A stretch of 64,000 nt of DNA from Terriglobales bacterium (GTDB lineage Bacteria; Acidobacteriota; Terriglobia; Terriglobales; Acidobacteriaceae). Shown piece by piece: positions 23,200 through 26,892 of the stretch (position 1 is its first letter; every line of letters begins with the position of its first letter). The notes below the pieces were generated by a model. The model was given only the letters and a program-made list of their open reading frames with translations. It made no database searches and was not told the DNA's origin. The stretch lies in contig DATMAB010000007.1 in assembly GCA_035573675.1 (NCBI GenBank), positions 62,001 to 126,000 of the forward strand, in the 5' to 3' direction. The position numbers were made by a program, and so were the translations under genes.

Positions 23200-24252
23200 T
23201 CACCCGGCCGCGTAGCGCGCCCGCGCCAGGTCCACGATTTCGCCGATCAGTTGCGTGTAGTTCCTGCCCGACTTGCGCGCGGCCATGGCGAACTCGGCCG
23301 AACTCGCCAGCCACGGGTTGGGATTGGCTTCGATGACGTACGCCTTGTCTTTTTTCCCCAGCCGCAGGTCGATGCGCCCATAGTCGCGCAGCTTCAGCGC
23401 CTGATAGGCGGCCACGGCTGTCTGCTGCACTTTGCGCACCGTCTCTTCGTCCATGTCTTCCACCGGCGCCGACTTCGTGACTTTGTAGGCCTGCGTCTCC
23501 TTCTCCCACTTCACATCCTCGCCCGCGATGCGTGGCGTGCCCTTGGGCAACTTGGAGAGGTCCAGCTCGATCAGCGGCAGCGCTTCCGGATTCTTGTTGC
23601 CCAGAATGGCCACATAGATCTCGCGCCCTTCGATGTACTCCTCGATCAGCACCGGTGAGTCGAACTCGTCATGGATGTAGTGCGTCTGTTCCATCAATTC
23701 TTTCACGCTCCCCACTACGGAACTGCTGCTGATCCCGATGGAGCCGTCCTCGGCGCTGGGTTTCACGATCAGCGGGAACTCGATGTCGTGGGCGTGGTCC
23801 AGCACGCCGCGATAGGAGGTGGCGAACTTTGGCGAGCGGATGCCGTGGAACGCGAACAGCTTCTTGGCCAGCACCTTGTCGTGTCCCAGGAACAGCCCCT
23901 GTCCGTTCGAGCCGGTGTAGGGCAGTCCCAGCAGGTCCAGGTACGCCGCCACGTTCATGTCTTTCGTGTCGTCGCCGGCGTAGGATTCGGTGAGATTGAA
24001 CACCAGGTCCGCTCCGCACTTGGCCAGGCCCACTAGTGTCTGGTCCCGTCCGTCGAGTGCGTAATAGAACGGCTCGTATCCCAGTTTCTCCAGAGCCTCG
24101 AACACTTCCTCGCGGTCGGCCTTTTCCTGCTTCTTCTTGCGCGACCGCCGGCCGCGCTGAGCCGCCGGCTCTTCCTGCGGCTCGAGCTTGGGTTCCTCTT
24201 CGCCCTCCCACACGTCGTAGAGGACCGCGATTCGGAACTTTTTGCCGTTCAC
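23200..24252 (-). CDS. D-alanine-D-alanine ligase-like ATP-grasp protein
   Basis: A 350-residue ATP-grasp enzyme of the Ddl superfamily. The N-terminal domain carries a Lys/Arg/Glu-rich insert near residues 25-48. Core motifs: DLVFNLTESYAGDD, LPYTGSNGQGLFLGHDKVLAKKLF, FPLIVKPSAEDGSIGI, VLIEEYIEGREIYVAILGN, and the metal-binding DLRLGKKDKAYVIEANPNPWL. The substrate is not D-Ala with confidence; such orphan ligases can join other amino acids or peptides. It is followed 22 bp upstream by the zincin gene in the same direction, suggesting a two-gene operon. Confidence 0.85.
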   Translation of the reverse strand: MNGKKFRIAVLYDVWEGEEEPKLEPQEEPAAQRGRRSRKKKQEKADREEVFEALEKLGYEPFYYALDGRDQTLVGLAKCGADLVFNLTESYAGDDTKDMNVAAYLDLLGLPYTGSNGQGLFLGHDKVLAKKLFAFHGIRSPKFATSYRGVLDHAHDIEFPLIVKPSAEDGSIGISSSSVVGSVKELMEQTHYIHDEFDSPVLIEEYIEGREIYVAILGNKNPEALPLIELDLSKLPKGTPRIAGEDVKWEKETQAYKVTKSAPVEDMDEETVRKVQQTAVAAYQALKLRDYGRIDLRLGKKDKAYVIEANPNPWLASSAEFAMAARKSGRNYTQLIGEIVDLARARYAAG

Positions 24253-24274: not shown

Positions 24275-25303
24275 CTAGGGTTGCGTGAACCTGCCCCGCA
24301 GGATGTAGTTCATCGCCAGTCCGGTCACGTACACGGTGATTTCCGTCAGATGCTCGCGCTCGCGCGCCACTTCATACTTCAAGCCCAGTTCCCCGGCCCG
24401 CTGCTCGATGGCGTCCACCAGCCTCTTCAGCAAGGGGCGCTTCACGCCCGTCCAGTAGGTCAGCTTGTCCAGCAGCGCCGCGTGATTCTCGCGCAACAGC
24501 TCCTGTGCCGGGCGCACGCCCCGCTTGCGCCGCTTGGAGGCGGCAAAAATGTCGGTCAGGTCGTTGTCCAGCGCCAGGTCCGCCGGGGAGAGCGGCTCGC
24601 CCATCGCCTTCTCGTAGAACTCGGCCACCGTGGATTCCATCTCTTCCACCGTGATGTCGGTCGAGCCCTGCGGACGCAACGGGTCCTGGTCCCGCACCTC
24701 CCGCGCGATGCGGTCGATGTACTTCAGCTTCTCCAGCGCGCCCCATCCGCGGTATTTCTGCCTCCACTTCGAACCCGGCGTCAGCCAGACGGCAAAGGTC
24801 TCGGCGAAGTCTTCGTCCGGATGCTTCTGCGCGTACCAGCCCTCGATGTGGCGCACGAAGCTGCGCGAGAACGGCACCGGCCGGTAGTTCTCCCGGTACG
24901 GCCGCCGAAAGGGTCCGAACAGCTGCCGCCACTCCGGCGTCTTGTAGAACTCGTAGGCGTAGTTGAATGCGTGGCCCGCTTCGTGACGCAGGTACATCAT
25001 GATTTCACGCGCGTCCTCGACGTCGTCCATCTCCTTTTCCAGGCGGACCAGGTCGGGATTGGCCAGGTAGAACGGAATGCCGATCACCGGCTCGCCCGAC
25101 GGACATCCCCATTCGTCGGTCAGGTAGCACAGCGGCCGGAATTTTCGCATCCGCTTGCGCTCCAGCTCGCGGTAGAGCTGGTGCACGAATCGCTCCAGCG
25201 GCGTTCCCTCCAGCTTCAGCCCCAGTTCCCGGATGGGCTTGCTCAGGATCGCCTGGATGTCCGGCGGCGCTTTCTCGAAGGCGCGCAAGGCGGCTCGCTC
25301 CAA
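24275..25303 (-). CDS. Putative zinc-binding metallopeptidase (HEAGH motif)
   Basis: A 342-residue soluble protein with the zinc-peptidase signature MMYLRHEAGHAFNYAYEF near residue 107 (HExxH) and downstream HPDEDFAETFAVWLTPG with a possible third ligand Glu. It resembles the uncharacterised putative zinc-binding metallopeptidase family. The only open start is a TTG directly after an in-frame stop. It precedes the ATP-grasp ligase by 22 bp, so the pair may make and mature a small modified product; that is inference. Confidence 0.75.
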   Translation of the reverse strand: MERAALRAFEKAPPDIQAILSKPIRELGLKLEGTPLERFVHQLYRELERKRMRKFRPLCYLTDEWGCPSGEPVIGIPFYLANPDLVRLEKEMDDVEDAREIMMYLRHEAGHAFNYAYEFYKTPEWRQLFGPFRRPYRENYRPVPFSRSFVRHIEGWYAQKHPDEDFAETFAVWLTPGSKWRQKYRGWGALEKLKYIDRIAREVRDQDPLRPQGSTDITVEEMESTVAEFYEKAMGEPLSPADLALDNDLTDIFAASKRRKRGVRPAQELLRENHAALLDKLTYWTGVKRPLLKRLVDAIEQRAGELGLKYEVAREREHLTEITVYVTGLAMNYILRGRFTQP

Positions 25304-26316: not shown

Positions 26317-26892
26317 ATGGCCAACCGTCTTGGACCGGCTTTGCGAGTCGGGGATGCAGCGCCGCCCCTGGAACTGCCCGCTGCCAACGGCGTCTGCGTG
26401 CGTCTTGAGGACTTCTGCGGGCGCCCGGTGCTCGTGTCGTTTCTCAGTCACGCCGCTTGACCCTTCGGTCGCACTCACCTGGTCCAGGTGATCGAGCAGA
26501 AGGAAGAAATCGAACGGTTGGGCGGGCAGGTGCTGCTGGTCACGCACGCCGAACTCCCCATGCTCGAGCGCAAGATGATGCATGACCTCGAGAATCCCTT
26601 TCCCTTGCTGCTCGACCCGCAAAAAGCCAGCTATCGGCAATGGGGACTGGGTAAGACGAACCTGGCGGGATCCGTGCTTTCGCCCAGCCTGAACTGGCGC
26701 TACCTCAAGCTTCTGCTGCGCGGCGAACGCTTCCTGGGAACCGCGCCCAACATGTTCCAGCTCGGCGGCGACTTCATCGTGGATTCCGCCGGCCTCATCG
26801 CCGCCGCCCACCCCATGCGCAACAACGGCGACCACGTCGAGGTTTCGGTGTTGCTGGACGGACTTCGCCGCCTCGCCACGCCCGTCCGCTGA
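26317..26892 (+). CDS. Candidate selenoprotein, peroxiredoxin-like (AhpC/TSA) family
   Basis: A 191-residue thioredoxin-fold protein if the in-frame TGA at 26458-26460 is read as selenocysteine. The upstream half is a normal peroxiredoxin start (VGDAAPPLELPAANGV, GRPVLVSFLSHAA). The TGA falls exactly at the peroxidatic or CxxC cysteine position: SHAA-U-PFGRTHL. The frame continues without a break through VLLVTHAELP and LGGDFIVDSAGLIAAAHPMR, typical of PF13911-like proteins, to 26892. A hairpin with a GGTCC loop begins 14 nt after the TGA, as expected of a bacterial SECIS. The second cysteine of CxxC is Gly. The alternative is a pseudogene by a Cys-to-stop mutation. No sel genes lie in the window. 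Confidence 0.75.
26475..26491 (+). promoter_or_regulatory. Candidate bacterial SECIS hairpin
   Basis: TCACCT, loop GGTCC, AGGTGA: a perfect 6-bp stem with a 5-nt loop starting with two G, placed 14 nt after the UGA codon (20 nt from UGA to the loop). Spacing and the GGUC loop resemble the E. coli fdhF element. Confidence 0.65.

Follow-up and report, generated by a model that had tools for sequence, protein, structure and literature searches.

The two-Sec motif of SelL is UxxU, in which U stands for selenocysteine (Sec). SelL has been described as a peroxiredoxin (Prx)-like protein with two Sec residues (PMC3473315, PMC2398784), and a 2026 review lists Sec-containing Prx, Prx-like proteins of the UxxC and UxxU types and a Prx-like cd02970 protein with UxxS (PMC13188914, Table 1). 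In the same review table, UxxG is entered for arsenite methyltransferase and for a rhodanese-like protein, with no such entry for the Prx-like family. Three known selenoprotein genes are listed in one paper for a single species of Acidobacteriota (PMC12013277), and a literature search found no paper with the selenoproteins of this phylum as its subject.

The window analysed here is a stretch of 64,000 nucleotides from a Terriglobales bacterium (Acidobacteriota), in which the first-pass annotation had pointed to one frame that was open save for a TGA at codon 48 and protein-like beyond it. Translation of positions 26317-26892 on the plus strand bore this out: the frame comprises 191 codons, TGA 48 (26458-26460) is the sole internal stop, the terminal TGA lies at 26890-26892, and no further stop or frameshift interrupts the part downstream of codon 48. 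The ATG at 26317 is the only possible start, as a stop lies 11 codons upstream and no ATG, GTG or TTG occurs in between; a promoter scan found none. The GC content by codon position after TGA 48 (0.70/0.39/0.83) is coding-like and resembles that of the neighbouring genes, and the values before it, from 47 codons only, are 0.79/0.53/0.70. On the minus strand of the window, a putative zinc metallopeptidase and an ATP-grasp protein resembling D-Ala-D-Ala ligase are encoded side by side (24275-25303 and 23200-24252) and possibly form a peptide-modifying pair.

Translated through TGA 48, the 191-residue product was matched best in NCBIfam by the SelL-related redox protein family NF040769 (103 bits, residues 14-181), which falls short of the 120 bits set as the curated cut-off; Sec relatives from the class of the query scored 92-131 bits on this family in a genome search. 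A match to Pfam AhpC-TSA was also obtained (55 bits). The PxxxTxxC or PxxxTxxU motif of canonical Prx is absent from the query, which reads SFLSHAAU, and the alignment showed that near-invariant residues of the family are kept on either side of the TGA (H45, R52, H54, D100, Q148, G151, D152 and D172). Judged by these sequence features, the query is a divergent SelL-related redox protein and not a canonical Prx. Its predicted structure (pLDDT 90.5) is Prx-like, the best PDB matches being Prx structures, including the 1-Cys AhpE. The earlier description of the protein as peroxiredoxin-like thus holds for the modelled fold, whereas its sequence belongs with the SelL-related proteins.

The proposal that TGA 48 falls at the reactive Cys position agreed with the alignment, in which relatives have Cys or Sec at the same column. 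Among 399 genomes of the class, many NF040769 members with exactly one TGA were found. Searching 396 genomes across the phylum with a profile then brought in closer relatives, nearly all of them with TGA at the column of the query, and 53 relatives from the phylum carry TGA in the column of codon 48. These homologues are not degraded by scattered stops and display a single TGA in this same column. The best nine BLAST relatives among those collected (30-36% identity) were all UxxC or UxxU Sec proteins. On the evidence of this alignment, the position of TGA 48 on the Sec/Cys column of the family is beyond what chance can give.

In the tree, the query lies inside a supported clade (96/83) made up of UxxC and UxxU proteins and a few with Cys. 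Its branch is long, at 2.93 in the first tree and 1.44 in the tree rebuilt after the addition of phylum and cross-phylum relatives. A second scan of genome contigs, which fed into the tree and the fold model, relied on a pattern ending in a Cys codon and favours Cys forms. A branch marked by CPVCNLH (L137, L139 and L145) was considered as the group of the query because L137 was top-scoring in the order search, and was rejected as the tree sets this branch outside with 99/94 support. Close orthologues were found neither by peptide patterns in genome-contig and viral-contig collections nor in the genus, family, order and class genome samples, and TGA 48 and Gly51 are therefore known from one assembly only. 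Two other observations were made among the relatives. A Sec protein (L092, UxxC) and a Cys protein (L129, CxxC) from the class are well-supported sisters, representing a recent Sec/Cys exchange, and the Cys copy has no strong hairpin at the corresponding place. One relative (L043/L098, G143:C21) contained a TAG besides its TGA in the first search, and this TAG is probably outside the gene since the narrower family match contained the TGA only.

According to the published model, a bacterial SECIS element has a loop of 3-9 nt with an early G, a stem of 4-16 bp, a spacing of 16-37 nt and an energy of at most -7.5 (PMC13188914, Fig 2A). A putative SECIS hairpin, TCACCT-GGTCC-AGGTGA, is located at 26475-26491 on the plus strand, beginning 14 nt past TGA 48, and its 6-bp stem and GGTCC loop were found just as the first-pass annotation had described them. 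The element fits the model, with a GGUCC loop, a 6-bp stem, a spacing of 20 nt from the TGA to the loop and an energy of -8.3 kcal/mol; when one extra pair is closed (tcacctg-GTC-caggtga), the stem extends to 7 bp around a GUC loop. In E. coli fdhF, a GGUC loop lies 18 nt past the UGA. However, hairpins fitting the model accompany 202 of the 1448 TGA sites in the window (14%), 159 of which are at least as stable as that of the query. The hairpin by itself is thus modest evidence in this GC-rich window, and its use as stand-alone proof of Sec was rejected. The argument that a chance stop would rarely be joined by such a hairpin therefore stands for the position of the TGA on the Sec/Cys column of the family, and overrated a structure that is not rare in GC-rich DNA. 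When the same peptide was recoded synonymously, 2.0% of samples attained the hairpin score of the query and 0.35% its folding energy over the first 51 nt.

Hairpins were also found among the relatives. A hairpin with an AGUU loop, placed exactly 25 nt past the TGA, occurs in 43 of the 53 Sec relatives and in none of 35 Cys relatives. This hairpin covaries: the 25 distinct stem-loops show pairing in 81% of cells, with several pairs changed on both sides, whereas shifting the 3' side by 1-3 nt lowers this to 18-56%. The hairpin of the query differs from the AGUU type in sequence and in position, lying 4-5 nt closer to the TGA. Nevertheless, its spacing is not out of place in the family, because the hairpins of L152 and L153, both UxxC relatives, share it and have the CACCT/AGGTG stem of the query around another loop. 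Three further relatives from the phylum (L149, L156 and L157) have two TGAs three codons apart, in FLRHLAULPUREH and similar sequences, giving UxxU, and in each the first TGA is followed by a hairpin with an AGUU loop.

The source genome (3.16 Mb in 28 contigs, 99% complete) carries selA, selB, selD and a tRNA-Sec with anticodon tca, so that the selA, selB, selC and selD set named in the first-pass annotation was recovered in full. Its selD has an in-frame TGA at the Sec site (KAAGUAS), and in at least three other redoxin genes TGA takes the place of the active-site Cys (TPGUT, FLRGTWUPNC and FTGGUT). These four likely selenoprotein genes, all outside the window (L002, L003, L131 and L012), encode a BCP/PrxQ-like protein with TPGUT, a Prx-like protein with FLRGTWUPNC, an apparently exported protein with FTGGUT, and SelD.

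Taken with the column that it occupies, UGA 48 almost certainly encodes Sec. In the cell, SelB and Sec-tRNA would act with the hairpin at 26475-26491 to recode this codon. The residue at +3 sets the query apart. Codon 51 (GGT, 26467-26469, plus strand) encodes Gly, as had been noted for the second Cys of CxxC, where the 53 Sec relatives carry Cys in 45 cases, Tyr in 5 and Sec in 3, and the query alone has Gly at this distance from a Sec. It does not conform to the two-residue motifs CxxC, UxxC or UxxU, but is UxxG; a Cys homologue (L075) likewise has Gly at +3. In relatives, the +3 partner would pair with Sec as a selenenylsulfide or diselenide (UxxC, UxxU); in the query this partner appears to have been turned into Gly, and the protein would work with one selenol. 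Sec48 would most likely reduce a peroxide or a disulfide-type substrate, passing through a selenenic acid or a mixed selenenylsulfide, and the oxidised form could then be reduced by an external thiol or redoxin in the manner of 1-Cys peroxiredoxins. This reading, in which one selenol cycles with the help of an external reductant, is the simplest and fits the sequence. Considered as a whole, the explanation by a Sec-containing SelL-related protein of the peroxiredoxin-fold superfamily, with a hairpin-recoded UGA 48 and a lone selenol, is very likely correct.

That the native enzyme is a single selenol without an internal partner is favoured with less assurance, as the partner may have relocated and codon 51 is one base away from a Cys codon. 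In the case of relocation, the protein would be a real selenoprotein in which Sec48 is resolved by Cys27, Cys34 or a Cys residue belonging to a second subunit. The query has only these two Cys residues, Cys27 (26395-26397, plus strand) on a short strand of the fold model (residues 27-29) and Cys34 (26416-26418, plus strand) just before the strand 38-43 that leads to Sec48, and Cys34 is missing from the aligned relatives. Single-Sec UxxY relatives have other conserved Cys elsewhere, which makes relocation conceivable in the family. However, the position of Cys34 before strand 38-43 in the model would presumably separate it from Sec48 by the length of the strand, and we regard a relocated partner as unlikely. 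The UxxY proteins form a SelL-related clade in the class (L108, L119, L121, L123 and L124), with WLRHFGU[PQ]FY, one TGA-encoded Sec and Tyr at +3; their other conserved Cys residues lie in CVVQG, FCGRHG and CIPDPD, and one of these might be a partner.

Two further explanations concern the codons themselves, and both are very improbable. TGA 48 could be a nonsense mutation, or the gene a young pseudogene of a former Cys protein, in keeping with its occurrence in one genome only, its long branch, the loss of the +3 Cys and the want of a close orthologue. Against this, the 191 codons contain no other stop or frameshift, codon-position GC remains coding-like after the TGA, the TGA sits on the one column where relatives have TGA too, the genome has Sec machinery, and the closest relatives are Sec and not Cys proteins. 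Equally improbable is a sequencing or assembly error, by which the real codon 48 would be TGC or TGT (Cys) or the real codon 51 TGT (Cys); the assembly is a single one, and either change requires one base. The genome has Sec machinery and several other Sec redoxins, and an error at codon 48 would have had to fall on the Sec column, whereas for codon 51, where GGT is one base away from TGT, there is no comparable counter-argument. Lastly, although a mechanical ORF caller gives just a 134-residue ORF from GTG 26488, the idea that TGA 48 is a true stop followed by a separate protein is highly improbable, as it would cut the fold just past the active site and strand residues 14-56, which are conserved, on a truncated peptide.

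With the single-selenol reading preferred, the query could represent an enzyme of the SelL lineage in which loss of the Sec/Cys partner led to a stable oxidoreductase with a single selenol (UxxG). This would have happened separately from the UxxY clade, Sec permitting the loss of the resolving residue more than once; we consider the chances of this evolutionary proposal to be evenly balanced. SelL-type proteins are known for their paired redox motif, and Sec relatives that lack this partner, UxxG in the query and UxxY in the second clade, would open to experiment the question of whether an enzyme using selenium can dispense with a resolving residue of its own. The survey also points to TGA-encoded Sec as a common feature of the SelL-related proteins in Acidobacteriota, in genes that ordinary gene callers truncate or miss. 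The claim of a new selenoprotein was thus upheld as regards Sec and narrowed as regards novelty, since Sec-containing Prx-like proteins and SelL are already known and the query is a motif variant of them.

Among known systems, the NF040769 family resembles the query in its active-site column and conserved residues, and many of its members are TGA-encoded UxxC proteins; the query differs in having Gly for the second Cys and in scoring under the cut-off. The TxxU-type Sec peroxiredoxin (PF00578; PMC13188914) shares with it the peroxiredoxin fold, by the Pfam AhpC-TSA match, and an active-site Sec, but the query has neither the Thr at -3 nor the Pro at -7 (S-F-L-S-H-A-A-U). UxxU proteins (L149, L156 and L157), which have the motif of SelL, are among the closest relatives of the query, which in contrast has one Sec and no diselenide partner. 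The cd02970 UxxS Prx-like protein, going by the description of its motif, is like the query a Sec protein without Cys or Sec at +3, with Ser there instead of Gly. The UxxY clade is likewise SelL-related, with one Sec and no Cys at +3, but it is a separate, well-supported clade with Tyr at +3, other conserved Cys residues and a hairpin of the AGUU type. Finally, the 1-Cys peroxiredoxin AhpE of Mycobacterium tuberculosis (PDB 4x0x, 1xvw) is a canonical peroxiredoxin with Cys in place of Sec and 22% identity to the query, yet it matches the fold (TM 0.72/0.88), has a single active residue, and may by analogy offer a model of a lone redox residue at work.
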